Assembly (NCBI GenBank): GCA_905250025.1
Contig: CAJNOJ010000382.1
Location: 1 to 64,000, forward strand
Reading direction: 5' to 3'
Length of the DNA stretch: 64,000 nt
Origin: Adineta ricciae
Lineage: Eukaryota; Rotifera; Eurotatoria; Adinetida; Adinetidae
Position numbers and translations under genes: made by a program. Shown piece after piece: positions 6,241 through 64,000 of the stretch; positions within the stretch are counted from its first letter, which is position 1, and each line of letters begins with the position of its first letter. The notes beneath the pieces are model-generated. The model made no database searches and was not told the DNA's origin. It worked only from the letters and a program-made list of their open reading frames with translations.

Positions 6241-6241
6241 N
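6241..6241. other. Single-N scaffold join
   Basis: The FG-GAP reading frame is cut mid-repeat (after SIASG) and the next base begins the right copy of the 108-bp duplication. Confidence 0.85.
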
Positions 6242-6349
6242 GAAGAGTTTATTTCATAAGTTATATTTAACAATACAAAAAACCGCAGTGGCATCTACAG
6301 CTAAAGTTAGAAAATGTATATTGAGTTATCGTGACCAATTTCAGTTCCA
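6242..6349 (+). repeat. 108-bp exact direct repeat, right copy (assembly overlap)
   Basis: Identical to 3156-3263; see that entry. Confidence 0.9.
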
Positions 6350-19489: not shown

Positions 19490-20726
19490 ATGTGGATAAA
19501 GAGTCTTTTCAACATTACTGTTGTCTTCCTGCCGATTTTCATCAATGGAATATCAGGTAACCGTCGGTATCTGACGTAGTGAATTAACCGAGCCTGTCGC
19601 TTTGATTGTGTAGCTGTTTGCGTCAATCAACCAAAATTCTATCCAACAGTCAAATAGAATCCGATTGCAACGACTTTCTGTGATAAACACGTGGCATTCA
19701 CAAAGTATGCTGCTGATATATTTATTGAAGCGAACGACACGATTTATATTTCTATTACTGAAAAATATCAAATTCTCGTTTGGCATGAGGGTGATGATGA
19801 TCCTACGATGATTGCTGTAGCAGATGGATGCATATTTCAGTTCATTTATGTCTTCAAAACTTATGAAATTTATATCCGCTATGTTTAAATAACAAATTCA
19901 TTAAATGGGTGCCAAGTAAAAGGAGTTTCGTTGACATTATCGTTCTTGGACGTGGCTGTAAGTCGATTGAAACGCTTCTGCTACCCAGATGCTTAGCTCA
20001 ATGTCCGTGTAGCAGTGGAACGTACAGTGAGCGTTTATAAAGGAGTCAGTTTTGACAAAGAGAAAAAGAAAACGCTTTGCTCGATGGATCATCTCCATTT
20101 TACCGATTTTCGTTGTGGAAACGATCATCCATGAGCCACTGTATCGTCAAATCTTCGAACATAAAATAAAGGAACGTAGGAAGATCGACGAAGAGACATA
20201 TACTTCGAAAGAATTCGCGACGGATACACTCTGCTGGCGTATGACTACTTATCCACAATCACTTCAAGATTACAATACAGTCATTCTCTTCATTCATCTT
20301 CTTGATCCGTTCAGCATAAATCTTTTGCCTTCGATGTTCATCATCATTGGAAGTGCTCGATGACGAGCAGAAGCTCAAAATCAACAAACATGTAGACAAC
20401 ATCTTCGCAAACAATGGAGCGAACACAAACACCTTGTCGTGAGTCCCATCATTTTAGTTGTTCTCTCCACACCTCGTCTGGTCATTTCGTTGTTATCTGG
20501 CTGCATCGATGTGTCTCAGTACACATGGTTATATCTGTGCAGTTATTTTATTTCGTTCACCCCATCGATACTTGTGTTTGTTGTGCCTTCGGATTTGTAT
20601 GGGAAAACGTTCAACGGATCGTTTTTTAGACTTTGTAAAAGGCGGCGATCGTATAAGAAAGGATCGCCGTTTCTTGTCATAATTATCTGGAGAAATACAT
20701 ATGAAGAAGTGGATAGTGTTGTGTGA
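19490..20726 (+). pseudogene. NHL-propeller/7TM receptor pseudogene with large internal deletion, copy 1
   Basis: Counterpart of the intact gene at 54960-59055. Exon 1 (ATG at 19490, signal peptide) and its GT donor (gtaacc) survive. Exon 2 still reads VNQPKFYPTVK but meets TAG, then follows the NHL start (IYISITEKYQILVWHEG). Near 19885 the frame stops, and shortly after (about 19950) sequence jumps to the receptor TM3 region (copy 2 about 58340). Most of the propeller, all three PPC-like domains and TM1-TM2 are therefore missing. The remaining TM4-TM7 part (RWIISILPIF...HEPLYRQ; QDYNTVILFIHLLDPFSINLL; TWLYLCSYFISFTPSILVFVV) is readable in mixed frames, with TGA at about 20360. Confidence 0.9.
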
Positions 20727-21168
20727 TAAAGAAAGTTCTGAAAACGAATTCCAAAGTATTGACACAGACTAACCATTTGCCGTTCTATGTAATGTAATAT
20801 ACATTGAAAGTCACGAATATTGATGGTTGTGCGTTGATATTTTCATAAGATTTTCATTGTCACAGGCGGACTTCACGAGTTGAAGAATAGTTAGAATCAG
20901 AGGTTTGAATTTGACCATCATTTTAAGGAAGAACACGATAGACCATGACGATTGTTATTTTGAGACAGAACCATTCAAACTCCAACGGGTTTGGTAAAAA
21001 TGGTCTAAGTTATTCCAGTAAGAACACATAAATAGATATTTCATCGTCAACACGAAGGACGAACAAAATATTCACGCAGAAAGAAATAACACGTTTACAG
21101 AACCACGTGTGTGCACCGGCCAATGACACCTTTCTCCATCGTGATAAACATCATGCAAAAGTACATTG
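20727..21168. other. Non-coding interval
   Basis: No gene seen. It separates the receptor remnant from the sulfotransferase remnant and aligns loosely with 59056-59613. Confidence 0.45.
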
Positions 21169-22010
21169 ATGCACATAAAAGGCACAGTTTCATTAGCATT
21201 TTTCGTTCTGATACATTACTTGGCAATATTTGTCATCTCGACAAAAATTTTTCTTGTCAACGAAGCCCATAGTATTCAACTAACAACAACTAGTTTCCAC
21301 GTATGTAATTCACAGTACCATAAACAGCTAGTGAAATGCTTCGAAATCTATTCCGTGAACGCGCACAAGCTCGACGTTTTACAATCAAGAACGAACAGAT
21401 TTTCGTTCCCTTTCGTTTGACTCCAGAAGCTCATCAAGAAATTGCAAGCGGTATGCTCAATGGGAAAACGCCTGTGTTCCACGAACGGCATATGTACTTT
21501 ATCGATTTCAATTCTTTAAATTATCCACAACCGGTATACAGCAATATTATACGAGATCCTATGCGAAGAGTCGCGTCAAGAATACTATTGGGCACGTGAA
21601 ATGTGTCGCGACGAGAATCGATGCTATTTCGATACAACATTTCTGAATGAAAAATTGGATGAATGTGTTCAATGTCGACCAGTACTCGAATGTATTAGTG
21701 TGTCACACGGAGTTAATACCATTCTTCCTTTCTTTTACGGTCATGATCCTAATTGTGAAACTTCGTCTAGTTTTTCACTAGACAGAGCGAAGAAGAATAT
21801 TATTAACCGTTACATAGTTGTTGGTATTGTTGAAGAATTATACAACTTCTTATTTGTACACGAACGAGTGGAAAACGGCCAGAACCAAGTGATACGACCA
21901 AAGTGTTATTACGTTCCGCACTTGTTCTGGTGTCTAAACTTTATAATTTTGTCAAGAAACGTTTTCGCAATAAATTTCAACAAGTTTTATTAATCATGAC
22001 TGAGATTTGA
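21169..22010 (+). pseudogene. Heparan-sulfate/uronyl 2-O-sulfotransferase-like pseudogene, copy 1
   Basis: An N-terminal hydrophobic anchor (about 21190-21255) is followed, after a frame change, by MLRNLFRERAQARRF. Then comes a stretch typical of the HS2ST/UST family of Golgi PAPS-dependent 2-O-sulfotransferases: G.TPVFHERHMYFIDF and PVYSNIIRDPMRR. The frame shifts at about 21583, then continues YYWAREMCRDENRCYFD, ECV, ILPFFYGHDPNC and LDRAKKNIINRYIVVGIVEELYNF. The 5'-phosphosulfate loop region seen in copy 2 is deleted here. The shift after VASRI is present at the same place in copy 2. C-terminal FVKKRFRNKFQQVLL ends with TGA at 22008-22010. Not expected to be functional. Confidence 0.8.
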
Positions 22011-22128
22011 TTTTCTTTTGTGAAATATTTCCTTCTCTCTTTTTTTTCTCTTGTTCTTTCGTTCTCATTGTTTTGACTACCCTGTGCACACATGTATTCG
22101 ATTGTTGATTTCATCTATCGCTGATGGC

Positions 22129-23940: not shown

Positions 23941-24011
23941 AAACAGTCCGCCCTTTTTTGTTTTGTACACATTGCATGACAGGAATAAATTATTTTGTTA
24001 AAAGTTTCTTG

Positions 24012-24019
24012 TATATAAG
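24012..24019 (+). promoter_or_regulatory. Possible TATA box of the Ly6-like gene, copy 1
   Basis: TATATAAG lies 34 bp before the ATG at 24046. The same octamer sits 34 bp before the ATG of copy 2 (62627-62634). It would put transcription start almost at the start codon, so a very short leader or trans-splicing is implied if it is used. Confidence 0.35.
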
Positions 24020-24045
24020 AGACGGTGCGTTGATCGTATGTAGAA

Positions 24046-24999
24046 ATGACGGTGCTCTTCGTATTCTTCTGTATGTTGATACTTCGTTGTCAGAGTTTCA
24101 TGAATATCGATCAATTTATGATGACGAACGAGACAAAAAGTCGAATGAACCTGACTTGTCTCTATTCCAATTATATGGTTACAGATTGTGAGTATTGCGT
24201 ATACCAATATTATAGTTATGGATCGAACATCGAAGTCATTCAGGATTTTATTCAAATAACAAATACGTATAAAAGTTTCGCCGAACGATGCAATGGCTTT
24301 TCGAATCAAACTGATATTGGATATGGTAATTGTTCACCGTTGTCATATGAAACATTTAATACATCGATCTTATGTATTTGTGCAACGAATTTATGTAATC
24401 ATGATCTTGATTCGTGCCGATTTTCAGTTCAGAATCAAACACAATCAAATTCTGCACCAGTAAGTTTACCAGCATTGCTTCCTCGACTGCAGACATCGAT
24501 TTCTTGTGTCAATTCATTGTTTTCTCAAACTGATACTGTCAATACGACTTATTATTGTGCCAATTCGCACTCTCCTTATATCAATTTGACCGCATGCATT
24601 GAATATTATCGTGCAAATACAGTTTTATGTGTTCTTATACTTCAAGGCAATGGAACTTTGGCGGTCGGATTATCCGAAGACGAATATCGATTGATTCTGC
24701 TTGCAAATATCCAAAATATTCACTATTTTGATCAGTATTCCGGTGTAAGTGTAGCATATAATCAAAGTTCATCATACTTTTATGTGATTTACAAGCAAAT
24801 AATTGATTCAAGTAACGAAACGTATATTCAACAAGTATGCTTTTGTGCCCAAGATAATTGCACGTCAAATATGACAAGCTGTCTTAATGCAAATCGATCA
24901 TTAACCGTTACCAATAATGGTCAGAGTAATCGTTTTCTTTCTGAAGAAAATCAGATTAATATATACTTATTCATTTTCTTCTATTTCTTTTTTTATTAA
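24046..24999 (+). CDS. Secreted Cys-rich, Ly6/uPAR-like, probably GPI-anchored protein, copy 1
   Basis: 317 aa. A signal peptide covers residues 1-17 (MTVLFVFFCMLILRCQS). There are two cysteine-rich halves, each ending in the three-finger (Ly6/uPAR) signature: CICATNLCNHDLDSC (about residues 111-125) and CFCAQDNCTSNMTSC (about 271-285). Many N-glycosylation sites (NLT, NQT, NTS, NTT, NGT, NSS analogues) are present. The hydrophobic C-terminus (INIYLFIFFYFFFY) fits a GPI-attachment signal. Assignment to the Ly6 superfamily rests on the Cys pattern only; function unknown. About 96 percent identical to copy 2, with open frame and length kept, which suggests selection. A poly(A) signal AATAAA lies at 25019-25024. 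Confidence 0.8.
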   Translation: MTVLFVFFCMLILRCQSFMNIDQFMMTNETKSRMNLTCLYSNYMVTDCEYCVYQYYSYGSNIEVIQDFIQITNTYKSFAERCNGFSNQTDIGYGNCSPLSYETFNTSILCICATNLCNHDLDSCRFSVQNQTQSNSAPVSLPALLPRLQTSISCVNSLFSQTDTVNTTYYCANSHSPYINLTACIEYYRANTVLCVLILQGNGTLAVGLSEDEYRLILLANIQNIHYFDQYSGVSVAYNQSSSYFYVIYKQIIDSSNETYIQQVCFCAQDNCTSNMTSCLNANRSLTVTNNGQSNRFLSEENQINIYLFIFFYFFFY

Positions 25000-26642
25000 G
25001 TGATTTAGATTTCTTTTCAATAAAACTACCCATGAAACTATCTTGAGGATGCGTGAGAGTGCATTAGGTGTGTACGATATTCTGTTCATTTTTCGTTACG
25101 TGTGAACTAGTGCACTATCAAATATGTTATAAAACAATCGATGGTTCGTATAAAATAATAGAGTCGGATACAAAATAACGCTCTCCTGAACCTTGAGAAA
25201 AGGTTTTGTAGGATAATACGAAAATATTAGGGTTCTCATTTTGTAAACTTGAAGCATTTTCAGAAGATATAGAATGCAGAGATGGATGACATGTGATGTG
25301 CGTATATATGTGCACATTAGTAGGTTCAATATATGTTTGTATATTCGAAGGAAAACTTCAACATGCATATTACGAAATAATCTATATTAACAACCGGATT
25401 GCACTTTTATTCCATCAGAGGATACTTTTTTGAAATAGTGGATCGTTGACGATTTATATGAGAGGGATGCAAGACAGAGATGTCGATATCGTAGTATTCA
25501 GATTAACGATTATTACATGTCTGGAAACTAGGGAAACAGTTATAAAGAGAAAAGGTTTAGATATCGTGCAAGAATCACTACAGCGCGTATAGATAAGAAA
25601 ATTAATCATTTTCTATATTATAATGTGTTGTTTTATTGAAACAGTTGAAAAACAGCTTTTGTCATCAATCATCGCTTATTGCTAAACATTTGCTAAAGTC
25701 ACGAAGGCATGTGTGAACGTTTTCAATATGAACGGATGAAAATCAAATGTTGTTAAAACGATCTATTATACCTGTTTTCTATAAAAATGCACTGAAGGTA
25801 CAAAGTCTCAATAGATTTATTCAGTCTGTTTCGTTCATTTTCTTGGGCTCACTCAGATAGATATTCTATCAACATACGAGAAACAATACTTTATATTCTT
25901 CTAAGTTATCAAGAACTCTTTAGGTGTTTTCTTAAAAAATCTGGTTTTCTAATTTCATATTTATGTATCTAAGAAAAAGCGTTTCTTTGTTGTCCCCGTA
26001 ATAGTTGTCATCCCCAAACTTTGTTCAGATTCGAAATAAAGATCAAAAGAAAGCGAACACAATTGTTAGAAGTTGAAGGTTCACGTGAGGCTCTATCTGA
26101 TTTGCATACATTTTCATTCAGACTGATTTTCATGAGATTCGAGAAAGTTACCAATCCATTACCCTGAGCTTTTATATATCTATTTGCTCAAATGCTATAG
26201 AATTGGAGTACTTAGAAGTAAGGATCACAAACCTTTTGTATTGAGATATCTAAATGAACGTTAGAAAATGTACATAGGAAAGACTTGATTGTATAGAAAA
26301 GCGCAAATATGTAAATGTATATAAATTAAAACTTAGCTTCTGGTATCTCACGAATGTGTGTGAACTGAAATGAGCGCGTAAGTATAATTCGTCCACTCAT
26401 CAATGTTTACATATCTTACTTCCTTCATCTAAAACAGTACCCACGTCCTATCTATTTCCAACCACTTGCACGTGGCACATAAAAGTTGTCTTTATTGATC
26501 ATTTAGTACACAATCAATGTAAAAAAATAAGAAGGTTCGAGGCATTTTTTATTTACGTCTTTTTCAGGCTGTTAAATAACGAGTGCATTGCAATTTATGA
26601 AATACATATATATTTACTGCTGTTGAAAGCGAACAAGTCTCA
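25000..26642. other. Non-coding interval; right edge of copy 1 of the duplication
   Basis: 25000-25396 matches 63615-63998 (end of window). From about 25400 to 26642 the sequence is unique, AT-rich and without a supportable gene. Confidence 0.55.
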
Positions 26643-47127: not shown

Positions 47128-48079
47128 GTCATCTATACCAGTATTAATTAGATAACAAGTTTTCCATTTATGTTCGATATATTTGTTCATCTGATGTATT
47201 TTCTTTTCGATTTCAGTAGTAATCATTGGGTAAGCTTATTTTCTGTCAACTATGACTGGACAAACTGATTACCAAGTACAAGAGGGCCGAATGAAGAGTC
47301 CCACGATGAACTGTTCCTCCATCCCCAGTTCCTCTAATGACTCGAAATGGAAATGATCAAAGAGAACGGCATCGGCATCGGATGTCTGATTCTAGTTGCT
47401 TTGGAAATACATGCACAATTATACCATAATAGCTTGGGAAGGGGGACGCGAAAGAAAATGTCTACATCAACGACTGATTCACAGCGTGTTGACTTCGTGT
47501 AGAACGTATTAAGAATAAAATTTGTTCACGTTCTGACTGTACCGTGGATCGAACGATGATAAGCTTTTGTTCCGTTATTGACAATCCTTTATCTCTTCCT
47601 TTGATTACAAATTTAATTGTGTTGTTTAGAAAAAAGTTCCGATGAACTTTAGTTTCTTTGAATGACAAAACATATATTAGTAGAAAGATAACACAAATCG
47701 AGGTCGATTCAATGACCAATCTACCCGAGTTGGAAAATTTTGTTTTCAGTCCGTGCAAGGGAAATTTTTATTATGTGAATAAAATATACACAACGCTCGT
47801 CGACATTAGCTCGCATTACCCTCGACTGAAATAGTAGTTCAGCGTACAATAGTTTTCATTCATGTTTCACATAAAAAAAACAGAAATATCTAATTAGATT
47901 TAACTTCTCGAGAACTATCTGTAACGATAATGATATCCTCTCCTTCTGTTTTCCTCTCTCTATATAAGCGTGTGTCTTATTGTGAAGCAGACACATTATG
48001 GATACGTGAGTAAGCTCAATAAACGTCTATACCGCCAGAAACGCTTAGCTGCTCAAACAGTTTGTCGTTACACCTATTT

Positions 48080-48450
48080 CTCCATCAAAGTCGCCATTCG
48101 TCTATGTACTTGATGAAGACAACACTTTCGTTTCATAAGAGGGAGAAAGTCTCCTTTGGCGAAAGAGAGACAACTCGATACATTTTGTAAAACTATACTG
48201 AAGCTCTCAATTCGAAGCGTTTTCATTTTCACCCACCTAGTGTAGATATCAGTATCTGCGATAACATTGATGCGCACTAATCAAGCTGTATCATGATCAT
48301 GATGAAGCTAAGCTTATTTCGTAGAAGTGCAGCACAAAAATATACTCTTGTCTACTTTCAAAAGAACGGGTGTATTGACAAATGATTGGGTTGATCTTCA
48401 ACAACTTTCATCATCGGTATTGTCTTCATTTTCATGCATATACAAGTTCA
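48080..48450 (+). repeat. Dispersed repeat, diverged copy C
   Basis: Aligns with 540-955 and 12525-12940 but has deletions (for example the segment after tttcgtttcata) and many substitutions. Confidence 0.65.
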
Positions 48451-48568
48451 ACGTTAAAACACATTACGAGAAAAACTTCAGAGAGAGAAAGGTCGCATAC
48501 AAGGGAAAATTAGAAGGGGGGGGGGGATTCCCCTCCTGCTCCCCCCGCAAATCGTAAACCCTGGATCT

Positions 48569-48667
48569 AGGTGCAAAAATAGTAAATGATAATTGTGTTC
48601 ATTTTCAGGCATTAGGTGCAAAAATAGTAAATGATAATTGTGTTCATTTTCAGGCATTAGGTGCAAA
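48569..48667. repeat. 45-bp tandem duplication
   Basis: A 45-bp unit starting aggtgcaaaaatagtaaatg occurs twice exactly (48569-48613, 48614-48658), with a third partial start. Copy 1 of the block has a single unit here (about 13176-13220), so the expansion is private to copy 2. Confidence 0.85.
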
Positions 48668-48902
48668 TTCTGATACTGGCGCCGCTGGTAGTAATTACTT
48701 CAGGAACAATTTTGAATCAACTATCGAATCCTCAATGAAATCGTCTTTTAATAAACATAGTAATCTGACAGTTGCTGATAGAAGAGAGCATGCTCATTTA
48801 GCGAGAAATTTCCCGATCAATCTGGTAATGCATTTTATCGTATGGTGCGAACGGTTAAACTTAGTTTTAATTAGTAGTTTGAACAGAACAATAACACGGT
48901 GG

Positions 48903-49562
48903 TCACTCAAAATATGTCATTACCGAAATAATCATATAGAATTTATGGTACTGTAATATTGTCATGGTAATTTTGATCGTTGGCAGAGCTTTTTGTTCAT
49001 ATCCACGAGCAAGAAATAATGCTATTAATATCAGGTTTAAAATAATTAACATAGATTCTATAGCCATTAGACTTTTCAGTCGTGGGACTTCTCCTCGAGT
49101 TTGTCTACGAAGCTGAACGTATTGATAAAAAGTAAATAAAAAGATAAGCATAAAGGCGATGTGGTTCATTCCAGAATGTCCATTTCTATACTGCAAATGA
49201 TCGAAAAAACCTCCGATTAATACTAAACCCGAAATAACCACGAAAAACCGTTGTACTTTCTGTCCGTTTTCTCCGATAAACAACGACATTGGATAACATA
49301 AAGACAGACTAATAAATACTCGAATAATCTCATGTGTTCGCCAGAAAACTGCTTTCCATTCAGCATACGTATCCGTATACAGAATATATCCTTCTGTCAT
49401 AATAACCAATTCGTCCAAAATAAAGACAGCGAGCAAACGTTGAACGAATACTTTTAAATAGGGATTTTTCACTGGTTCCAAAGCAATAAGACCGATCATC
49501 ATCGCTTCGCATATAATTCTTGCGACGAGCATTTCATTATTACAGCTTACAGCGATCGACAT
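48903..49562 (-). CDS. Unrecognised multi-pass (about six-TM) membrane protein, copy 2
   Basis: 219 aa, ATG at complement 49560-49562, same length as the gene at 13551-14210. Replacements are few and mostly conservative (for example Asp/Asn, Val/Ile, Phe/Leu, with one Cys to Phe and one Asp to Ala). All hydrophobic segments are kept. Family not recognised. Confidence 0.7.
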   Translation of the reverse strand: MSIAVSCNNEMLVARIICEAMMIGLIALEPVKNPYLKVFVQRLLAVFILDELVIMTEGYILYTDTYAEWKAVFWRTHEIIRVFISLSLCYPMSLFIGENGQKVQRFFVVISGLVLIGGFFDHLQYRNGHSGMNHIAFMLIFLFTFYQYVQLRRQTRGEVPRLKSLMAIESMLIILNLILIALFLARGYEQKALPTIKITMTILQYHKFYMIISVMTYFE

Positions 49563-50482
49563 GTTCGCAAACACAGAAATATCTATACGAATGCTCTATT
49601 CACGATATAAAAACACTGTAATAATATTTTTCCTACTGTTTTTATGCTTTTATATCACGTGAGTCATAGTTGTTTTTCTCTCTCCTGAATATACTACAAT
49701 GACGGACGGGGAACATGAGTCACATTGAAATTTTTGCGTTTCTCCTATAAGAAAACGGGAACATTGCTCCGATCGAGACGTGTACTTAGTTATTTTCATC
49801 TTCGTCTGTGTTGGAATAGGATAAAGAGAAAAAGTTTACTGCGTGTAAATCTCTTTGCACAGCAAAAGAATCGAGCGTTTTCTATTACGAGAACGATTTA
49901 CTCATGAAAAATCGTTAAAAATTTTGTATTTTGGCAATTCTTTAAGTATATTATGTGAGCCCAAGCATTCTCGATTGACAAAATACGTTGACCTATAATA
50001 CCATTATAAATTTGTGTTTGAGTTAAAAATTGCAATAATATGGATAGAATGAGATAAGATCAGCAGAGTATCCAATCCAATTTGTTCATTTGCTTCAAGA
50101 AAATGACGACTAATTTTCTCAGCATTGTCGAATTTTATATTTTCACCTCTTTCAAATCTGAAGATGATGATAGCGATAAGTCAGCACTCTATCAGAATGA
50201 CAATCTTCTTATAAAAAATGAAATAATAATCACGCTTTGTTGACTTGACGTTTCATCACATGAACGCTTCTGAAAATGTTAGTATCATTTGAGAGATGAT
50301 ATAAATACAATTATACATGACCAATGATTTTTACCTAATGGATTTATTGTTGCACTAGTGTTTGCGTTCATACAAAGAAAGTTACGTAATGTTACTGTTT
50401 TGTTGTCTCGATCACAGAGTTCTTGGAACATTTCACACATTTATATCTTTAACACAAAACAACGAACGGTATAAACACAACT
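49563..50482. other. Non-coding interval, conserved with copy 1
   Basis: Corresponds to 14211-15191 with small indels. No gene supported. Confidence 0.5.
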
Positions 50483-51760
50483 GAGAAATAAACCGTAACT
50501 GGCAACATTGGACAAATATCAGGCACTATTATTGTGTGGTGGAATAACTATGTTGACGATGATAATCAAGATCATCAAAGAATATCTACACAACTCCAGT
50601 ACACTTTACCCGAGATCAGTATATTCAATGACAATAATCGATGCATCAATTACATTCTTGACAACATCGATTGAAAAGTATGTCTGATCATTTCAGTATC
50701 ACTTGTACAGCATGTTGTATTGTGCATCGACGCACGTCCTAAGCATAAATTCAGTTTACATCCTTGGTGATGGAAAAGATCAACATGAGCAATCGATGAA
50801 AATATGGTCGAAGGTAAAAGATGTCTCCAGTGATATCACACAGATCTGTCAACCGACCGACCGTCGATATCAGATCAATGGCAGTCCAATGAGCTTCGTG
50901 GCATCTGACAAAAGACTAGATCATTTGGATCCGTCATTGATGTACAGACAAATCATCAAAGAAATCCTTTTGATGATGATTGAATTCGTAGACTATTACT
51001 GTGACATATTTGTTGACAATGACACCGATAAAAAGAAAGTGAAACGATTAGAAGATGAACATCACAATCATACACCCATCTGGTGATATACAACAGAGAG
51101 ATTTCTGTTTGATACCCTCAATCGTGCATTGAGAATGACGAATGGTGAGGTGATCACACTGATGGGAAAGATAATAAAGTCGTGAGCGTCTTTTTTTTAT
51201 GATGAAGATTAATCCTAAGAAATCAACGATGCCACTTGCTTTGGTCGAACACGTGAGTCAGTTTGGAGAAGAGAAAGAAGTTCTGTTTTCGATGCACAAT
51301 GTATTTCGTGTGCTAACTCGAATAGCACAGACGGATATTATTGAATAGGTCGTTAAAGACCTGATCGATAAAACAATTCATGAAAACGGCACGACATGGA
51401 TTCATAATCAACTTGGCTTAATTATATATCAACAAGGTCAATATGAAGACTTCATAGTACTGTATAAAAAATCTCTCGAAATACTACTTAAGCCATTTCC
51501 TTCTAAGCGTCCCGGTATGGTATCGTCCTACAGCAACATTGGTTTGATATATTTTGAAATGAACGATTTTCAAAGGCACGTATAGCATATGAGCAGATTC
51601 TCCAAATTCAATGACAATCGCTCCTTCTCAGTAATCGTTCTGCGTTGGCTGCATCGTGCAACAACGTTGATTTAGTGTATCATAGAACGGGCGATTATTC
51701 GGCGGCTCATTTGTTTTTCAAATACGCTCTGCAAATTTGACAACTAGTTCTATCATCAAG
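50483..51760 (+). pseudogene. TPR-repeat / NAD:arginine ADP-ribosyltransferase family pseudogene, copy 2
   Basis: Counterpart of 15192-16560. The start ATG is lost (gtataaac instead of gtatgaac) and there is an early TAA. The TGA after the NID residues is shared with copy 1. The segment 50703-51086 keeps SVYILGDGKDQHEQSMKIW...LDHLDPSLMYRQIIKEILLMMIEF and HNHTPIW, so copy 2 preserves some residues deleted in copy 1. The end of the ART domain (EEKEVLFSMHNVFRV) runs directly into the TPR part with stops and a frameshift (near 51569). The ART catalytic core is missing. Confidence 0.85.
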
Positions 51761-52763
51761 TCATCGTCATCTCCGACTCTATAAAAGAAACGTTGGAAAA
51801 TACTGAGAATCTGTAACTTTTATTTGTGTTCTCTCATGAAGAGAAAAAAACTGAAGAAACAAGTGTACATCTTCATTGAATATCTCAACAACCACAAAAT
51901 TGATTGTTTTGTACGCTATTCATTTTTTTCTCTTCACATATAACGCATAATTGTTCTGCTTAATCACAAGTTTTACAGCACTTCGTCTTCGATCATCTAA
52001 CTAGTTATCTTGTCGAAATTCTCAATTGATTAATTGAAAGACCTAGTCTTTATCCAGTCGCAAATGCTTTATTTCGATCAAAGACTCAATACAATCATCT
52101 AATTTCAATTCAGTCGAATTTACAAATTCAGGTTCAAATTGATGATACTGACACTACTCATAATTAGACACTTGCGCATACTCATTTTCATTTGAACAGA
52201 TCGGATTGATGACGTGACATTTTGTTTCTCATAAAATGAAAAAGTAATGGTATCAATGATAACTATATCCTTGAACACAATGTGAAACAGCTAAATAAAG
52301 GGCAGGTTGTGGAAATAGATGAATTGTTCAGGTTCATAAGAAAACGAGCCATTTGTCTTCATTGGACATGATGAGCGTCGAACGTGCATCAACAAGGTTT
52401 TTATCGACAAACGTTGCTGCGACTATGTCTCTTCATTCATTCATTGCTTTTTTTTTCTTGACGATCCTTACAACAATCAAATGTATTCTTTTTCAGGACC
52501 CACAATGCATATCTGATTGTAGGAGACACTTAGCCATGTGTCAGGACTAAGCAGCAGACAATTATTTTTAGCGGATACTTTAACATTTTTTTCAAGTGAT
52601 CTATATTTGACTTCATCCAGTGTTACAAGAACAAATCTCTCTCTCACACAACTAGATACAAAGGCACGCAAAGATCTTGTGACTCTCGTTCATGTTTTCC
52701 GATAATTAGTTCAATCCGTCTCGTTCTTCACAATTACAAAGATAGAAAAAAAATGCGCTGTTC
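51761..52763. other. Non-coding interval, conserved with copy 1
   Basis: Corresponds to 16561-17568. Nothing supportable. Confidence 0.5.
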
Positions 52764-53762
52764 TTAATGAGGTTGATGAAGGTCTGTTATTGTGTGGATT
52801 TGATTGTTCGTAAAATGAGGACGATGTTTACTACGGTAAAATAATCTTTGTACTTCGTGTCGGAGGTGTGGCGTTGAAATGAAATAAATATAAAAACTTG
52901 AAGCCGGATTTACGTAAAATAAAATTGATGAAATGACATGCAAAAGAAAGATCAATCCGGATTGTTGTTGATTACCATGAGCGAACATTCCGTAGTAAAG
53001 TTGCTCAACGCAATATGGAATTGATGAGATAACAATTGCAATTGACATTAACACGAGCATTCGAGACAATTGTTTATCAACATTCAAATGACTTCGAACG
53101 TGAATTTGTAGTTGTTTCAAATGCTGAAAGGTTAGTGTGCCAAATATTGATAGAAATACGATGGGAAAGATCCCGTGTAAAAAGATTTGAGTAGCGTATA
53201 AATAATAGTAAGAATATTGATTTGAATTGACATCGCAATCACCGGTTGATGAAACTTCGAAGAAGATGAGTAGAGGAATGTTATGAAGACAAAAGAAAAG
53301 AAAGATCAGCAGAATTATTTGTTTTGTGTGGTGTTTGGTGGTGCTAAGATTTCTCAAATGAGCATTCCTGGATGTTATTAAATATCGATCGAAGGTAGCC
53401 ATACAAAAATATGTTAAAGACATCAAATCAAAAGTGTGTAAAACGAAGAATCGAATTTTACATAGAAGAATCACTTGATTTGGTGAAACTGAATAATTAA
53501 ATCCGTCGAAAATGATTCGAGTGACCAATGGATATAGAAGAACTATTAAATTAGAGATCGATGATACGAGTAAGTACAAAGAACTGTTATTGGCTTGATT
53601 TGTATTCTGATGTTGATCTTTGAGGACTTGTCGAGAACGAGACCAAAGAGTAAATACATAGATGTTCAGAAGATTACCAATTGACCCAAAGATTAACATA
53701 ATTAGACCAGCGATGATCATCAGGAGATGAGCAATAGTATACGCTTCTTCCATGTCAAACAT
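52764..53762 (-). CDS. Rhodopsin-like 7TM receptor, copy 2
   Basis: 332 aa, ATG at complement 53760-53762 (MFDMEEAYTIAH). Same motifs as copy 1: GN in TM1, FDRYLIT, ECL2 Cys, and NPASSFYIYF ending TM7 with basic helix 8. Intact, single exon, about 95 percent identical to 17569-18567. Ligand unknown. Confidence 0.9.
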   Translation of the reverse strand: MFDMEEAYTIAHLLMIIAGLIMLIFGSIGNLLNIYVFTLWSRSRQVLKDQHQNTNQANNSSLYLLVSSISNLIVLLYPLVTRIIFDGFNYSVSPNQVILLCKIRFFVLHTFDLMSLTYFCMATFDRYLITSRNAHLRNLSTTKHHTKQIILLIFLFFCLHNIPLLIFFEVSSTGDCDVNSNQYSYYYLYATQIFLHGIFPIVFLSIFGTLTFQHLKQLQIHVRSHLNVDKQLSRMLVLMSIAIVISSIPYCVEQLYYGMFAHGNQQQSGLIFLLHVISSILFYVNPASSFYIYFISTPHLRHEVQRLFYRSKHRPHFTNNQIHTITDLHQPH

Positions 53763-54959
53763 GACGTTGTGAAATGATTATATGAATATGACTGAGTTTA
53801 TAAGCCCGTTAGAAAGTAAAAAAACCACGCGGATCATTATAAACTGCGGAGGAATTTTTTTCTTAAAAGGACATAAATTTATTCTGCTGGATGAGTTTCA
53901 TTTGACAATCAGACTTTGATTTTCTTTTAATAGTACTCTGTAATTGTTGACATTCACTGCAAGAATTACGTTCTTTACATGGAGAAAAGACCGGCAAAAA
54001 CTAATGAATAGATAAATTAAACCTTGTTTGTCGGGAAGATTCGCGATTATTCTATCTAATAATATGTACTCGAAGAACATTGTTTTGTGAAACATTCATT
54101 TTAATTTGAATAAAATATGACACAGTCGAATATATTATTAAGATGTCGTGAGTACAGTAGCAAGATTAAGCTTTTCTTGACATGATCAGTCTAATTCAAG
54201 TTGTGATGTAAACTGCACATTGGACCGACACCATCACGCTCGACATGCTCCAAAAACACTTTCACTGGAAAAGTACGACTCTTAAACTGTTTGATACTTA
54301 TCGAACGGAAACGAGGCCATATAAACAAAGAAACCAAGGGAATGCCAATGTAAAATTTACGCTCGTGACATGCAGATACCTTTACATTGTGATGGTTAAC
54401 AAAATGCATACTATTGTTTACCAACAAAATTCGTCTATAAGAGAATTTTTTCTTTGAAACTTGACAGGCATATCAATACATATTTTTATATACTGATATG
54501 TAGAAATCTGCTTTATTTGCCAGTTAAAATCATGGAATGAATACCGCTCAGTTTGGATTATTACTTTAAATCGAAGAGAGTGAATAATCATGACTTGTAA
54601 TCTCATAGTATTGAGCTTGTAATATAATAAATAATAATAATAATAATAATACCGTTCCATAGGCTTTTACGCTCGTTGGAGTCGGCCGCGGTTATTATTA
54701 GTATTTTTTCCATATGCAGCCGGGTTGTATCGTCTTTTCCTTTTGCGAGCAGTGGTTTCGGCACCCTCTTCTTCAAAAGTGTTCTCATCGACAAATCATG
54801 ATGATTACAAAGCTGTTGTGAGCACGAAGAAAAACAATATCAATCAAAACCATATTCATTAAAACACCTATACACTATGAATAATGGAAAGGAAAGGAAG
54901 ATATAAGTGTCGAGGAAAACATGAACGAAGTCATTTCTACTTGACATACTTCATTGAAT
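53763..54959. other. Divergent intergenic region with a copy-2-specific insertion
   Basis: Presumed promoters of the GPCR (minus) and NHL-7TM receptor (plus). Contains a TAA/TAATAA microsatellite (about 54625-54650) and a fold-back segment (to about 54705) absent from copy 1. Confidence 0.5.
54625..54705. repeat. (TAA)n microsatellite with inverted partner
   Basis: aataataataataccg at the left is followed about 40 bp later by cggttattattagta, its imperfect reverse complement, so the segment can fold into a hairpin. Not present at the matching place of copy 1 (about 19250-19310). Confidence 0.5.
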
Positions 54960-57900
54960 ATGTGGATAAAGAGTCCTTTCAACATTACTGTTGTTTTCCT
55001 GCTGATTCTCATCAATGGAATATCAGGTAAGCATCGTTTTTCCGAAGTATCTGACTTTGAGAATGAATTGAACTTGCTCCTTCGATCGTCTAGCTATTTG
55101 GTTCAATCAACCAAAATTCTGTCCAACAATAAAATGGAATCCGGTTGCAACGACTTTTTTTCGTCAAGACGTGACATACACAGATTATGGTCTTATTCTA
55201 TTTATTGATACGAATAATACAATTTATATCTCGGACACCGAAGACTATAAAATTCTCGTTTGGCATAAGGGTATTGGTGATCCCACGATAATTCCTGTAA
55301 AAGATGGGTGCATATTTCAGTCTACGTATGTCTCCAAAATTCATGAAATTTATATCCCTTGTGAAAATAAGAAACTCATTAAATGGGTACCAAATGAAAG
55401 GATTTTCGTTGACATCATGGACTTTGACAAAGTATGTGATCAGCTTTTCATCGATGTTGAGAATTATTTATATTGCTCAATTGCTTCTGGCACTGTAATT
55501 GAGAAAATATGGGTGGATAACACAAGCGAGACGGTGGTTGTGGCTGGCACAGGGAATCCTGGCTCAGCACCAAATGAACTCAGTGGCGCTAGTGACATCT
55601 TCGTTGACACAAATTTGGATCTCTATGTGGCTGACACCCAGAATCATCGCGTTCAACTTTTTCTCTTTCGCGAAACAAATGGAACAACAGTTGCAGGACG
55701 AACTTCATCAGATATTACAATTACGCTCTCTTATCCATTGTCAATCTTACTAGATGCTGACAAATATCTCTTTATTTCCGACAGTGAAAGTCATCGTGTT
55801 GTTGCCTCGGGACCAACCGGTTTTCGTTGTCTGGTTGGATGCGATGGCGAAGGTTCACAATCTCATCGGCTAAACTGGCCAGACAAACTTAGCTTTGACG
55901 TTTATGGAAATCTCTTTGTTAACGATCGTCTCAATTACCGTGTTCAGAAATTTCATCTGCATCAAGATTCTTGTGGTAAATATGGAGTATGAGCATGATT
56001 TACATTAGAATTCAGAAAAGATGAAATAATTAGATCATAACTCCCTTGTTTTCTTCATCTTCTCTTCAACTTTACCATCACCTTCACAACTATACTCTTC
56101 TTCATTATCGAACACTTCATTTCTTTTCCTATTTAGAAAATGTGCCACCAACGGCTCAAGCGACATATTCAGCAATCTTAACCGACAATCATCCACTGTT
56201 TTCACGCACTATATTGCATCCCTCAGATTATCACTACGAAACCATCGAAGTAATTGTCGTCAGTAAGAGTGACTTTTACATTCTCACTGCGAACAGCACA
56301 GTCGATCTTTATGGTCATCTCTACAAACATCATTTCGATCCATCGAATCCGACAAGTGATCTGATTGCATGGTATGGAAAATGTTGCAACAAAGAGCAGT
56401 TCAAGTTCACTCTTGAACTGTTTGTCAACATCAGATACATTCTGGTTGTCACAACATACAATCCAAATGTAACAGGCTCATTCTCAGTCACCGTCTTTGG
56501 TTCAAACCCAATTTGTCTGAAACCACCAAGTGAGTGACTAGATACGACTAAAATGAATATTGGATGGATAAAGACCTTCACTATAATCTGATTGTAGGCT
56601 GATTCAGTTCAGTCTAGATGTGTGTAAGCGCAGGCACCCGTCATGACAGAGAGATCTGAAGTTATTCATCGAGTTTCCATACCAAATCAGATTAAAACTG
56701 CGATTGATGTTTGTATTTTGTGCTGACTAAGACATCACGCACATGTTGAATACATTCGATCGGGCAATTACTTTAATACTTGAATAGCAGGAGCACATTC
56801 CCAATACTTTTTATGCTGTATAGATGCTGACCAACTGGTCGAATCAAACTACAGGTTTGCACTCACACACAATCATCAGACATATTCTCCTCCTTCTTGT
56901 AAGATGCTCTCAAGATACTACTATGAAGCATTGCAAATAAGTGTGAACGAGAGTGGTTTCTATACTATTCTCAGTAGCATCGATAATACGTACATGGATA
57001 CGTCGTTTTACATTTATAAACATGAGTTCTATGCACTTATTCCATTTGCAAATTTAATACGTATGAAAAACGATGCTTGCAATAAATACGATTCATCTGA
57101 AAATACAAATACCATTGAACTTCAAATCAACATTCGATACATATTAGTTGTGACAACATGTTCGTCCAACAGAGTGGGAAACTTCTTGATTAGAGTATCT
57201 GGCAGAAACCGTGTTAGTTTCGAACGAACAAGTGAGTAGTATATATGATCTTCACGAGTTGTACTAAGAAACACAACTCACATAAAGCAGATCATGCTAG
57301 TGGTATCGCAAATGAAACTTTTTATATTTTTCTACATAGATGCTTTGGCAAGTGTCCATTCGAACTATTCATCGGAACTAACAAAAGATAGTCCAAAGTA
57401 TGATAAATATTGTAATGGCCAAGATTTTTACTATGAATCTATACAATTAACTGTACTCACTAGTGGAAACTATAGTCTTGTTATGAGTCAAGTTTCGAAT
57501 GGACCTTTTGTTATACACATATATATGTATAAAAACCATTTCGATCCATTAAATCCGCGCGAAAATTCAATGTCAATCGATGACTATGCTTGTAATAAAA
57601 AATCTGAGAAAGAATTCACATTCACAGCTGATCTTCGCCATGATGACACATATATGCTAGTTGTGACGAATACTTATAATCGAGCGTATACACCGCGATT
57701 CTCAATCACTGTTTATGGTCCATCAAATGTTACTCTTCAGCGCATCGGTGAGTATCAACAACAGTCATACACTGAACACATAAAATGTTGTTTATATATA
57801 GAAAGACCACATTCATCTCTTACACCCTCACGCTTGACAGATAGCATAAAGTAGTGAGAAGACTGGAGATTATAGAAAGAAAGAAATTTTCAACTCTGTA

Positions 57901-59055
57901 AACATTTGCAATACACAGATGATACATGAAGATTCTGACAGATTGTTTTCTTTTTCAATGATTTGTTTAGTTGATGATAACTCTACTCGCTGTTATGTTG
58001 GTGGTCCGTGCAATACTCAAGTGAAAAGTATTGGTCTGACTCTCGATGACATTCTTCGACTGGAAATCAAGCCAAACATGACAATACATAATCAACCATT
58101 GTCCATCAAAATCAGTGCTGCATTATCGGTAATTATGTTTGTCGCGGGTGTCATCAACAGTCTCTGTTCATTCTTAACTTTTCAAAATCCAAATGCACGA
58201 ACAGTCGGATGTGGCCTGTATCTTCTCGCGTCCTCAGTCACTTCTCTCCTCACAATCACAATGTTCGGAATCAAATTTTGGTTTGTTGTGGTCATACAAA
58301 TGGATATATCTGTTCCTCAATCTGTCCTCCAAGGTGGTTGTAAGTTGATTGAGACTCTTCTTAAACTCTTCTGCTACTGGGATGCTTGGCTCAATGCGTG
58401 TGTAGCAGTGGAACGTGCAGTGAGCGCTTACAAAAAAGTGAGTTTTGACAAAGAGAAAAGTAAACGCTTAGCTCGATGGATCATCTTCATTTTACCAATT
58501 GTGATCATGGGAACGATCATCCATGAGCCACTACACCGTCACATTGTCGAATATAAAAGACAGGAACGTAGGGAGATTGACGGAGCGATTTATACTGAAA
58601 AAGACGTCGTGATAGATACGGTTTTCTGGTGTATAACTACCTATCCACAATCACTTCAAGATTACAATACAGCCATTCTCTTCATTCACCTTCTTGGTCC
58701 GTTCAGCATAAATCTTTTGTCTTCATTGTTCATCATCATTGGAAGTGCTCGACGACGAGCAGAAGCTCAGCTGCAACAAACATATAAACAGCATCTTCGT
58801 GAACAATGGAGCGAACACAAACAACTTGTCGTCAGTCCCATCCTTTTAGTTATTCTCTCAACACCACGTTTGGTCATTTCATTGCTATCTGGCTGTATAG
58901 GTGTGTCTCATTATACATGGTTATATCTTTGTGGTTATTTCATTTCATTCACACCTTCAATACTTGTCTTTGTTGTGTTTGTCCTTCCTTCGAGTTCTTA
59001 TCGAAAAACTTTCAAGAAATCGTTTTTTCGACTTTGTAAAAGGCGGCGATCATAG
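54960..59055 (+). CDS. Modular 7TM receptor: signal peptide, NHL propeller, three PPC-like domains, rhodopsin-like 7TM
   Basis: Six-exon model: 54960-55026, 55094-55975, 56137-56529, 56824-57231, 57340-57747, 57971-59055. It sums to 3243 nt (1080 aa) with no stop and all five introns phase 1. Exon 1 is the signal peptide (MWIKSPFNITVVFLLILINGIS). Exon 2 (about residues 23-316) starts IWFNQPKFCPTIKWNP and has NHL repeats (IYISDTEDYKILVW; LYVADTQNHRVQLF; LFISDSESHRVV; LFVNDRLNYRVQKF). Exons 3, 4 and 5 each encode one domain of about 131-136 residues with YYEAIQ.sV..SGFYt...s.idty.YlYk..Fdp and RYILVVTT..pn..G.FsitV.G, like bacterial pre-peptidase C-terminal domains. Exon 6 opens VDDNSTRCYVGGPCN and holds seven TMs with CVAVERAVSAYK at TM3. 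A surface sensor; ligand unknown. Confidence 0.88.
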
Positions 59056-59613
59056 GAGATGTCATCGGTGTTTGTCACTATTGTTATGCGGTGATTATTT
59101 GAAAAAATACATGTTGAAGAAAGTTCTGAATATCAATTTCAAAGGATTGGTACAAGCTACTTATTCGCATTTTTATGTGATACACGCTAAAAATCACGCA
59201 TATTCATGGTTGGATATTGATCTTTTTATAAGGTCTTGTTTGTCACAAGCCAGATTCAGGCGTCCAAGAACGTTCTGAATACGTTTTGTTTCTGACATGT
59301 CTTTAGTTAAGTATTGTCTACAGTATACTAAAAGTGTCGCATAAAAAGACCATTTGGCGGAAAATAGATGAATCTCCATGCATTCACACGCTTTAGTGGC
59401 CATGCTTGATATTATTGCACGATAAGGACGCATAAGTAGATGTTACATACTCTACACTAAGCGAAAGAAATAGCATGCGTACAAAAGTACGTGCATGTGC
59501 TTTTCCACGACACTTTTCTCCATCGTGATAAAGGCCATATAAAAGTGCATTGATTATGTTTGGAGGTACATGGGCGTACATAAAATGCACATTTTCATAA
59601 ATGATCCTTCGTT
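59056..59613. other. Non-coding interval
   Basis: 3' region of the receptor and 5' region of the sulfotransferase remnant. Nothing recognisable. Confidence 0.45.
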
Positions 59614-60531
59614 ATGATCAATCACTTGATAAGATTTGTAATCGCGGCAAATATTATTCTTGCCAAAGCAGTCCATAGTACTCATCCAACAACAACTAGC
59701 CTTCATATACGTAATTTAGATTCATTCAGAAAGTTTTGCAATAACAGTTCCAAGATTAAAACTAATAAATCCTTAACCATAGCCAAGCGCTACTCTCTCA
59801 ATGTCGTTTATAGTCGGGGACTCAACACAACTAGTGAAATGCTTCGAAATCTATTCTATGAACACGCACAAGCTCGACGTTTTATAATCAAGAACGAACA
59901 GATTTTCGTTCCCTTTCGTTTGACTCCAGATAAGCTCATCAAGAAATTGCAAGCGGTATGCTCAATGGGAAAACGCCTGTGCTCCACGAACGGCATATGT
60001 ACTTTATCCATTTCAATTCTTTAAATTATCCACAACCGGTATACATTAATATGATACGAAATCCTATGCGAAGAGTCGTGTCAAGAATACTATTGGACAC
60101 GTGAAATTTGTCGCGACGAGAATCGATGCTATTTCGATTTGAAATTTCTGAATGAAACATTGGATGAATGTGTTACTGTGCCACATGGAGTTAATACCAT
60201 TCTAACTGTAACACTCCGTCTGGCTTTTCACTAGTGACAGCGAAGAAGAATATTATTAACCATTACACAGTTGTTGGCATCGTTGAAGAATTGTGCAACT
60301 TCTTATTTGTACTCGAACGATTATTACCACGGTTCTTTAGCAATATCTGTCTCACATATATGACATATAGAAAATAGCATACGAACGACTGGTAGACGAC
60401 TAGAACCAAGCGATACGACCCTAGCGTCGTTAGGTACAGCACTTGATCTGGAATATAAACTTTACCATTTTGTCAAGAAACGTTTTCGAGACCAATTTCA
60501 ACAAGTTTTACTAATCAAATCTGATATTTGA
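59614..60531 (+). pseudogene. Heparan-sulfate/uronyl 2-O-sulfotransferase-like pseudogene, copy 2
   Basis: ATG at 59614 (MINHLIRFVIAANIILAKAVH) with a signal-anchor-like N-terminus. It keeps SLNVVYSRGLNTTSEMLRNLFYEHAQARRF, where the family has its PAPS-binding loop, a segment deleted in copy 1. A one-base insertion after LTPD (about 59932) breaks the frame, then PVYINMIRNPMRR appears in another frame. The shift after VVSRI (about 60086) is the same as in copy 1, followed by YYWTREICRDENRCYFD. The region equivalent to FFYGHDPNC is damaged. The C-terminal LYHFVKKRFRDQFQQVLLIKSDI ends with TGA at 60529-60531. Confidence 0.8.
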
Positions 60532-60727
60532 TCTTCTTTTGTGATGCATTTTGCTCTCCCGTTTTCTTCTTGTTTGTATCCGACAGGAAATATATTTTCT
60601 TTCGTTCGTTCTATATGATTTATGAAATTATACGTTCTCATTGTTTTGACTACTCCTTGCGCACGTGTATTCGATTGTTGATTTCATCTATAGCTGATGA
60701 AAACTGAAAAAAAGCCAACGTGACGGT

Positions 60728-62554
60728 ATGAGAATCATGGATGAAAAGAATTGCAATGAAAGCAACGAAGAAAAATGTGATGCCAAATTTCTTTTGCTTC
60801 ACAAACATCGAATGAATTCGTCTAAAAAAATGCAATTCGAATCGTTACCCAATGACTTACTACTCGAAATCTTCGATTATCTCGATGGCATTGAACTCTT
60901 CCGAATCTTTTCTCATCTCAACTCACGTTTTACCGAACTCCTCTCTTTCTACTCACGCTATTATCATTTCAATTTCCAATCGATCACCAAAAACGAAATG
61001 GATTTGGTTTGTCAGGAATCATTTCGAGAGAATGTTTGGAAAATCTCCTCATTGACACTCTCCGATGATGATGACACGCCCTACCAGACTGAATTATTTT
61101 TCTCCTACAGATTGCCTTTTCATAAGTTCTTTTCATTACGATCGTTGTCTTTATATCATATCCGTTCTAAAGTGGCATTCTATTGGTTATTATCAAACTT
61201 AAGCGTTTTCCCGCATTTCAGCTACTTAAAAATCGATCAAATCGATATTGATCGACAGGATATCTATCCTTATTGTTACTCAATTTGGTCCCTGTTCACT
61301 CTTACCGACCTTTACATATCCGATCCGAACCTTTTTCTCGATTATTTCTTGTACAATCTCAACATATCTGTATCTCTTAAACGCTTACATCTATTGGAAA
61401 GTTCGTTTCTGCCAACTGAATTCGAAACCTTACTCAAACATTCACCGTCCGTAGAAGAATTAACAATCGAAATCTACCAAGATTCGGATGACGATGATCT
61501 TTCCATCGACATGGACTTGCAAAGCACTCTTCCATTAATAACAATCCTAAATCTAAAATTTACCGGCTATTTCAGTGGATTAGATCATATTCTTCAATTA
61601 ACACCACATGTACTCAAATTACACATCGAATTATTCAATCAGAAAATCGATGGCTATCAATGGCAAGACTTGATTTGTAGACATTTAATGCACTTGTCAG
61701 ATTTTCACTTAAAAATGTCGTTTTATCTGACGATGGACTGCGATCTTGAAATGGAAGTCGATGAATTAGTTGAATCGTATCAGAGATCCTATTGGACTTT
61801 ACAACGGCAACTGCATTTTCGTTGCCTATCCAATCTTGAATACAACAATTCGGAAGAGCAGTATTTCGTTCTGTTCTATAGTTTACCATACGTATTCGAT
61901 GCATTCAAATATATCAAACCTGTTTACTCGAAGTCGACGTATAATTTTCAAGTCACGGAATGTGAATCATATGACACCGTTCGTATTCTCTGTCTGGTTC
62001 CCGATGACGACAAACCTACTGACGAAATCGATGAAAGAATTCAATTTTCCAACCTTCGCCACCTTGTTATTGGTTACACATTCAAATATCTCGATATTTT
62101 CTGTCCAAAATTGAACTTTTTAACAATCCTCGACATTCAGTATCTCGACGGTCAAGTTCGATCGCATGTACAAACGTTACTTAATCGTGCGCCTCGATTA
62201 CAAACGATCATTTTCAATAAGAATAACTGGTCGCTATTTTTCCTTGCGAGTAATTCTGTTCGACGTCTATCTATCCGAGATGGAATCTATTACAACATTC
62301 AACAATGCGAGCAACTATGTTCTTCTCCATTGTTTCAACAATGTCAAGTTTTAGAAATCAATCTTCAGAAGAAAACAAGTGTAGTCGATCTCATCAATCG
62401 AATGACGCGTCTGCGAACACTAATTTTCCAGTGTCAATGCGAGCAATGGAAAGAAAGTCCGACGAAATTAGAAACATGGTTTAAACATTATTTACCATCG
62501 CAGTATTTGATTAAGCGAGACGAATCCGGATCGTTTCGACTGTCGCTACAGTAA
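60728..62554 (+). CDS. F-box / LRR-like protein, copy 2
   Basis: 608 aa, ATG at 60728 (MRIMDEKNCNESNEEKCD). Same organisation as 22129-23940: an F-box (FESLPNDLLLEIFDYLDGIELFRIFSHLNSRFTELL) then irregular LRR-like sequence to the end. It has five extra residues near the N-terminus (CNESNE region). Intact, single exon, about 96 percent identical. Probable substrate receptor of an SCF ubiquitin ligase; substrate unknown. The Ly6-like gene starts 106 bp downstream, as in copy 1. Confidence 0.88.
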   Translation: MRIMDEKNCNESNEEKCDAKFLLLHKHRMNSSKKMQFESLPNDLLLEIFDYLDGIELFRIFSHLNSRFTELLSFYSRYYHFNFQSITKNEMDLVCQESFRENVWKISSLTLSDDDDTPYQTELFFSYRLPFHKFFSLRSLSLYHIRSKVAFYWLLSNLSVFPHFSYLKIDQIDIDRQDIYPYCYSIWSLFTLTDLYISDPNLFLDYFLYNLNISVSLKRLHLLESSFLPTEFETLLKHSPSVEELTIEIYQDSDDDDLSIDMDLQSTLPLITILNLKFTGYFSGLDHILQLTPHVLKLHIELFNQKIDGYQWQDLICRHLMHLSDFHLKMSFYLTMDCDLEMEVDELVESYQRSYWTLQRQLHFRCLSNLEYNNSEEQYFVLFYSLPYVFDAFKYIKPVYSKSTYNFQVTECESYDTVRILCLVPDDDKPTDEIDERIQFSNLRHLVIGYTFKYLDIFCPKLNFLTILDIQYLDGQVRSHVQTLLNRAPRLQTIIFNKNNWSLFFLASNSVRRLSIRDGIYYNIQQCEQLCSSPLFQQCQVLEINLQKKTSVVDLINRMTRLRTLIFQCQCEQWKESPTKLETWFKHYLPSQYLIKRDESGSFRLSLQ

Positions 62555-62626
62555 AAACAGTTCGCCCTTTTTTTGTTTTGTACACATTGCATGACAGGAA
62601 AAAATTATTTTGTTAAAAGTTTCTCG

Positions 62627-62634
62627 TATATAAG
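62627..62634 (+). promoter_or_regulatory. Possible TATA box of the Ly6-like gene, copy 2
   Basis: TATATAAG 34 bp before the ATG at 62661, as in copy 1. Confidence 0.35.
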
Positions 62635-62660
62635 AGACGGTGCGTTGATCGTATGTAGAA

Positions 62661-63614
62661 ATGACGGCGCTCTTCGTATTCTTCTGTATGTTGATACTTC
62701 GTTGTCAAAGTTTCATGAATATCGATCAATTTATGATGACGAACCAGACAAAAAGTCGAATGAACCTGACTTGTCTGTATTCCAATTCTATGGTTGCAGA
62801 TTGTGAGTACTGCGTATACCAATACTATAGTTACGGGTCGAACACCCAAGTCATTCAGGATTTTATTCAAATAACAAATACGTATAAAAGTTTCGCCGAA
62901 CGATGCAATGGCTTTTCGAATCAAACCGATATTGGATATGGTAATTGTTCACCGTTGTCATATGAAACATTTAATACATCGATTCTATGTATTTGTGCAA
63001 CGAATTTATGTAATCATGATCTTGATTCGTGTCGATTGTCAGTTCAGAATCAAACACAATCAAATTCTGCACCAGTAAGTTTACCAGCATTGCTTCCTCG
63101 ACTGCAGTTATCGATTTCTTGTGTCAATTCATTGTTTTCTCAAACTGATGCTGTCAACACGACTTATTATTGTGCCAATTCGCACTCTCCTTATATCAAC
63201 TTGACCGCATGCATTGAATATTATCGTGCAAATACAGTTTTATGTGCTCTTATACTTCAAGGCAATGAAACTATGGCGGTCGGATTATCCGACGATGAAT
63301 ATCGATTGATTTTGCTTGCAAATATCCAAAATATTTACTATTTTGATCAGTATCCCGGTGTAAGTGTAGCATATAATCAAAGTTCATCATACTTTTATGT
63401 GATTTACAAGCAAATAATTGATTCAAGTAACGAAACGTATATTCAGCAAGTATGCTTTTGTGCCCAAGATAATTGCACGTCAAATATGACAAGCTGTCTT
63501 AATGCAAATCGATCATTAATCGTTACCAATCATGGTCAGAGTAATCGTTTTCTTTCTGAAGAAAATCAGATTAATATATACTTATTCATTTTCTTCTATT
63601 TCTTTTTTTATTAA
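62661..63614 (+). CDS. Secreted Cys-rich, Ly6/uPAR-like, probably GPI-anchored protein, copy 2
   Basis: 317 aa, same length as the copy at 24046-24999. Signal peptide (MTALFVFFCMLILRCQS), two Cys-rich halves ending CICATNLCNHDLDSC and CFCAQDNCTSNMTSC, and a hydrophobic C-terminus. All cysteines are kept between copies; changes are scattered and mild. Poly(A) signal AATAAA just after the stop. Function unknown. Confidence 0.8.
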   Translation: MTALFVFFCMLILRCQSFMNIDQFMMTNQTKSRMNLTCLYSNSMVADCEYCVYQYYSYGSNTQVIQDFIQITNTYKSFAERCNGFSNQTDIGYGNCSPLSYETFNTSILCICATNLCNHDLDSCRLSVQNQTQSNSAPVSLPALLPRLQLSISCVNSLFSQTDAVNTTYYCANSHSPYINLTACIEYYRANTVLCALILQGNETMAVGLSDDEYRLILLANIQNIYYFDQYPGVSVAYNQSSSYFYVIYKQIIDSSNETYIQQVCFCAQDNCTSNMTSCLNANRSLIVTNHGQSNRFLSEENQINIYLFIFFYFFFY

Positions 63615-64000
63615 GTGATTTAGATTTCTTTTCAATAAAACTACCCATATGATGCTGCATTACTGTGCTTTAATAGTAGAAAAAAATGCTGATCTTCAAT
63701 GAAGAGTTTCGGTTTATATGACCAGAGCGTTCTTTATGTGTGAACGAGTGCACTACCACATATGTTATAAAATATGGTCGCGGGGATACAAAACAAAGCT
63801 CTCCTCAACTCTGAGAAAAGGTTTTGTAGGATAATACGACAATATTAGGGTTGTTGAAGCACTTTAGAAGATATAGAATGTTGAGATAGATGACATGTGG
63901 TGTGCGTATATGTGTACACCTTGGTAGATTCAATATATGTTTGTATATTTAAAGGAAAACTGCAACATGCATATTATGAAATAATCTACAGATAATAACC
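63615..64000. other. 3' flank of copy 2, cut by the window end
   Basis: Matches 25000-25396 with indels (for example tgcatattatgaaataatcta). No gene. Confidence 0.6.

Follow-up and report, generated by a model that had tools for sequence, protein, structure and literature searches.

A predicted six-exon gene of Adineta ricciae joins an NHL propeller, three related all-beta domains and a rhodopsin-like seven-transmembrane core

The DNA analysed here, hereafter the window, is the stretch of 64,000 nucleotides at positions 1-64000 of contig C382 of Adineta ricciae, within a genome of 130 Mb in 1033 contigs. At 54960..59055 it carries a predicted six-exon gene that looks real (Table 1). The preliminary description had built this model by hand, with 1080 amino acids, five phase 1 introns and three domains each occupying exactly one symmetrical exon, and all of this was borne out on translation: the coding sequence of 3243 nt has its sole stop at the end, the coordinates are correct, the introns (67, 161, 294, 108 and 223 nt) are all GT-AG and in phase 1, and exons 3 to 5 have the lengths noted. 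From the N- to the C-terminus, the protein consists of a signal-peptide-like exon, an NHL propeller, three related all-beta domains called here D1 to D3, and a divergent rhodopsin-like 7TM, so that an ectodomain of about 730 aa stands before an exon 6 of 360 aa.

Table 1. Positions in the window of the receptor exons, the elements of the hinge and the partial receptor copy
Feature	Position	Strand	Basis or remark
Exon 1, signal-peptide-like, 22 aa + split codon	54960..55026	+	hydrophobic residues 7-25
Exon 2, NHL propeller, 293 aa	55094..55975	+	Pfam NHL, PDB phmmer
Exon 3, domain D1, phase 1-1, 393 nt	56137..56529	+	splice model, predicted fold
Exon 4, domain D2, phase 1-1, 408 nt	56824..57231	+	D1 identity, D2 clade
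Exon 5, domain D3, phase 1-1, 408 nt	57340..57747	+	D1 identity, D3 clade
Exon 6, hinge + divergent rhodopsin-like 7TM	57971..59055	+	stop 59053-59055
Cys pair C-x5-C, exon 6 residues 7 and 13	57991..58011	+	invariant in 17/17 rows
IGLTLDDILR, before TM1	58030..58059	+	lowest-entropy 10-residue window in exon 6
Truncated left receptor copy	19490..20651	+	exon 1, part of NHL, later 7TM part

The same arrangement is found in a paralogue (L042, C181:108500-115600), which has a related signal-peptide exon followed by NHL, D1, D2, D3 and 7TM, and in which consensus splice sites give phase 1 at all five junctions, with the caveat that several acceptors are possible at two junctions and that a weaker pair between NHL and D1 would yield phase 2. 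When splice sites were picked ignoring the frame, 63 of the 72 unique full-length D domains came out as phase 1-1, against about 1/9 expected under random phases, the rows being related and hence non-independent. Four of the nine exceptions belong to L046, whose architecture differs; the others are L008, L018 and L013 (odd acceptor or donor pick), L040 (locus edge) and the last D domain of L045, where a stop precedes any donor. The end of an NHL exon was present upstream of D1 at 14 of the 48 loci searched, in 13 distinct places, and the NHL was read through in the window and L042 only, because most of the other NHL ends are cut by the locus edge.

The NHL assignment of the preliminary description held well: PF01436 scores 44.2 bits against a cut-off of 20 (30.3 bits in L042), a phmmer search of the PDB aligns exon 2 with the NHL domain of Drosophila Thin at 7.2e-19, and five blades were recognized by pattern and a sixth by eye. 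Leucine-rich repeat families give no match at E<=1 in exons 2-5. D2 and D3 are respectively 35% and 32% identical to D1. The preliminary description called these domains PPC-like. The PPC profile (PF04151) does not match them, has 0 matches genome-wide and is not in the best 25 of the 28 Pfam families touching any of 62 D domains. The fold predicted for D1 by AlphaFold2 (pLDDT 84.2, with three window rows as input) has bacterial PPC-type domains as its second-nearest relatives, after calpain domain III. The predicted D1 structure agrees with the Calpain_III fold, whereas the corresponding profile (PF01067) stays below its cut-off, with 13-13.9 bits versus 21, and reaches E<=1 in 10 of the 62 D domains with a best value of 0.03. 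Calpain domain III and the bacterial PPC and collagen-binding domains occur within proteases, while in the present gene the D domains belong to a predicted receptor, and no profile match with calpain domain III or PPC rises above cut-off. GPR180 combines a 7TM region with a GOLD-type domain at its N-terminus, and its comparison with the present protein concerns the D1 fold alone.

D domains were also seen in other settings. Four of them follow the end of an astacin, outside receptors, in L046 (C345:50000-55000), and six are consecutive in L045 (C530:13500-21500), where the stretch lacks a 7TM. A scan of genome contigs with an astacin-linked D domain returned one relative among 98 candidate stretches, from a Ruminococcus MAG, with 37% identity over query residues 43-101; this stretch matches no Pfam family and its full open frame matches DUF2846 only, below cut-off. 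A bacterial origin of the D domain by transfer was considered and set aside, this single match being neutral evidence either way.

Exon 6 had been described as rhodopsin-like, and the term can be kept in a restricted sense. Its 7tm_1 score is 22.2 bits, below the cut-off of 30.5, but 16 of the 17 aligned family members match 7tm_1 at E<=0.1 (best 5.7e-8), and a family 7TM profile run against the PDB retrieves class A receptors, the best being melatonin 1A at 2.7e-5, together with CCR6 and CCR9, in a search whose noise level is marked by nitrate transporters at 0.33. The whole frame of L043, an EGF-rich paralogue, has no 7tm_1 match at E<=0.5. Class A GPCRs are recognized by the cysteines joining TM3 to ECL2, the arginine of TM3, the CWxP of TM6 and the NPxxY of TM7. 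Here C123, C220 and R148 are invariant in 17/17 rows, and NPxxY and CWxP are missing from the 17 aligned rows, where the prolines P328 and P298 alone are invariant. A hydropathy scan called six of the seven helices and missed the TM3 region, and single-sequence structure prediction of the 7TM gave a pLDDT of 39.5. Mean entropy is 0.56-0.67 bits in TM2, TM3, TM5, TM6 and TM7 and 1.20 in TM1; the C-terminal tail is short and basic. We therefore file exon 6 by its sequence as rhodopsin-like, short of a proven class A member.

The segment that precedes TM1 is the most conserved of exon 6. Over 17 aligned rows, one of which is long-frame, IGLTLDDILR has a mean entropy of 0.117 bits, versus 0.289 for the best non-overlapping window, and it comes shortly after the cysteine pair. 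This hinge is retained in the EGF-type L043, where the equivalent C-x5-C pair closes an EGF-like pattern. The receptors FSHR, LHCGR and TSHR are alike in having a big ectodomain, a conserved Cys-linked segment before TM1 (P10) and a class A-like 7TM, and the P10 of FSHR is described as a tethered intramolecular agonist counted among the most conserved regions (PMC9889800). By analogy we propose that IGLTLDDILR may be a hinge or a tethered agonist, its likeness to P10 being one of position and conservation. The ectodomains differ, being made of leucine-rich repeats in the hormone receptors and of NHL plus beta-sandwiches here.

Genome-wide, the 7TM exon gives at least 115 rows (113 of 703 candidates scored) and D3 at least 150, both counts being lower bounds because the searches score the best candidates only. 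Among the matches listed, 11 of the 115 7TM rows have in-frame stops and some are fragments. Two types can be distinguished in these matches. The short-frame rows (<560 aa) number 59, and 44 of these are preceded on their own strand by listed D rows at a distance of up to 6 kb; the 56 long-frame rows have a listed D upstream in 0/56 cases, and their match begins, by eye, at query residue 3-7 in 56/56, which is the start of exon 6. The one long-frame gene that was read, L043, shares the hinge and 7TM with the window gene at 44% identity and is unlike it in being a single open frame, of 1496 aa with 91 Cys, carrying EGF-like patterns in place of NHL-D1-D2-D3. Three such patterns were found, the last abutting the hinge, with Pfam EGF slightly below cut-off and LDLa-like modules visible by eye only. 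Long frames are usually of 1200-1600 aa; the largest listed, 3574 aa, contains the 7TM match at G000:C141:32769-33689 (-). Another paralogue, L047, has D and 7TM within a single open frame. Among the matches listed, 58 of the 150 D rows lie away from listed 7TM exons. The design had been called unusual; it is no isolated oddity, and on sequence grounds the gene belongs to a large family in which one membrane module bears differing exon-built outer parts. Lineage-specific expansions of Adineta vaga include both 7-transmembrane receptors and NHL proteins (PMC3846280), given separately in the sections drawn on here, with no mention there of a joint NHL-7TM architecture; a general GPCR expansion is described for terrestrial lineages (PMC12804077).

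The window itself contains a direct segmental duplication (12015-25384 versus 47596-63988, in pieces 69-93% identical), which may be either a genuine duplication or the product of joined haplotypes. Besides the receptor, the duplicated segment includes another 7TM gene together with two further frames, one F-box-like and one Cys-rich and surface-like. The second 7TM gene is intron-free and adjoins the receptor in both halves (52764-53774 and 17569-18642, both on the minus strand), its right copy matching 7tm_1 above cut-off with 35.9 bits. Elsewhere in the window, two near-duplicate long frames (3239-6259 and 7778-10369, plus strand) have DLNNDxRLD repeats that are FG-GAP/VCBS-like by eye. The left receptor copy lacks the rest of the NHL, D1-D3 and the early 7TM, and shows one TGA in its 7TM part. 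On C223 there is a third copy with D2, D3 and 7TM, its NHL and D1 being unmatched in the 6.6 kb read. The copy at 54960..59055 is the sole complete one of the three.

D1 forms a single clade over 12 receptors, and D2 and D3 each do so over 14; therefore the array is older than the radiation of the family. Over 12 receptors, mean identity is 0.59 for D1, 0.42 for D2 and for D3, and 0.67 for the 7TM. Compared with the C223 copy, dN/dS is 0.28 for the 7TM, 0.34 for D2 and 0.45 for D3, and as judged from these codons there is purifying selection between the two copies. Other close pairs range from 0.13 to 3.97, and since several values are near 1, constraint may be relaxed in some copies. Positive selection is not claimed: of 20 pairwise comparisons, a single D2 pair reached 3.97, and of seven exon pairs tested, a single one gave p 0.0044, uncorrected. 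The distance matrices of D1, D2, D3 and 7TM (12 receptors) correlate weakly, with r from -0.16 to 0.37; exon exchange after the expansion was set aside as an explanation, a star-like radiation fitting this weak correlation equally.

Starting from the observed gene structure, domain order, conservation pattern and minimal family size, and from the predicted D1 fold, our main reading, to which we give a probability of about 0.45, is that of a cell-surface receptor with an exon-built ectodomain, a hinge acting as built-in agonist and a G-protein output. The signal peptide would export the large ectodomain, made of a six-bladed NHL propeller and three beta-sandwiches of calpain-III/PPC type, which would capture a protein, glycan or surface ligand. 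D2 and D3, being less conserved, would be the likeliest variable contact surface, and NHL-D1 the scaffold. Ligand binding would shift the short, Cys-paired and nearly invariant hinge, IGLTLDDILR would push onto the 7TM bundle from above and serve there as a built-in agonist, in the manner of P10 in the FSH, LH and TSH receptors, and the 7TM would then engage a G protein. Surface location, ligand binding, hinge agonism and G-protein coupling are all presumed here, and the role may be chemosensory, food-recognition or immune.

The most serious competitor, which we consider rather unlikely, is an adhesion or scavenger protein. Its ectodomain would attach to cells, matrix or food particles, with the 7TM serving chiefly for anchoring or endocytic transport and not signalling through G proteins. 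The absent NPxxY and CWxP, the ectodomain about twice as long as exon 6 and the D rows found apart from listed 7TM exons would suit it; the invariant TM3 arginine and both disulphide cysteines would not, and the low entropy of five of the helices exceeds an anchor's needs. The LGR-type layout and the fairly conserved D1 and 7TM would also agree with an ordinary large-ectodomain receptor for a peptide or protein hormone, with one fixed ligand class and duplicated without diversity of recognition, which is improbable given that a genome with over 100 7TM rows, and a mean identity of 0.42 in D2 and in D3, go beyond the needs of a single hormone system. Two separate genes, one for a secreted NHL-D protein and one for a 7TM protein, would be suggested by the D arrays of L045 and L046 read without 7TM, and become very improbable in view of the consensus phase 1 junction between D3 and 7TM in the window and L042, the upstream same-strand D rows of most listed short-frame 7TM rows, and the single frame of L047. 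Least probable of all is a decaying copy, functionless at present: its two sister copies are truncated and stops interrupt some listed 7TM rows, but here 1080 codons are open, the splice sites are intact and dN/dS against the C223 copy is 0.28-0.45.

For the receptor reading, the many paralogues, of which at least one is EGF-rich on the common hinge and 7TM, suggest a single output module with many inputs. The family may be an undescribed sensing system. A broader proposal, which we hold only tentatively, is that of an undescribed recognition system of about a hundred or more copies, in which one hinge-7TM module would carry swappable ectodomains (NHL-sandwich in phase 1 exons or EGF-rich in a single frame), the hinge being the common tethered agonist and the whole a combinatorial chemosensory or immune repertoire of this lineage. 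If a conserved hinge-7TM output does serve many ectodomains, a few chimaera assays could reveal the ligands of an orphan family, and the family would offer a natural case of symmetrical-exon modules bringing to membrane receptors a sandwich fold better known in proteases.
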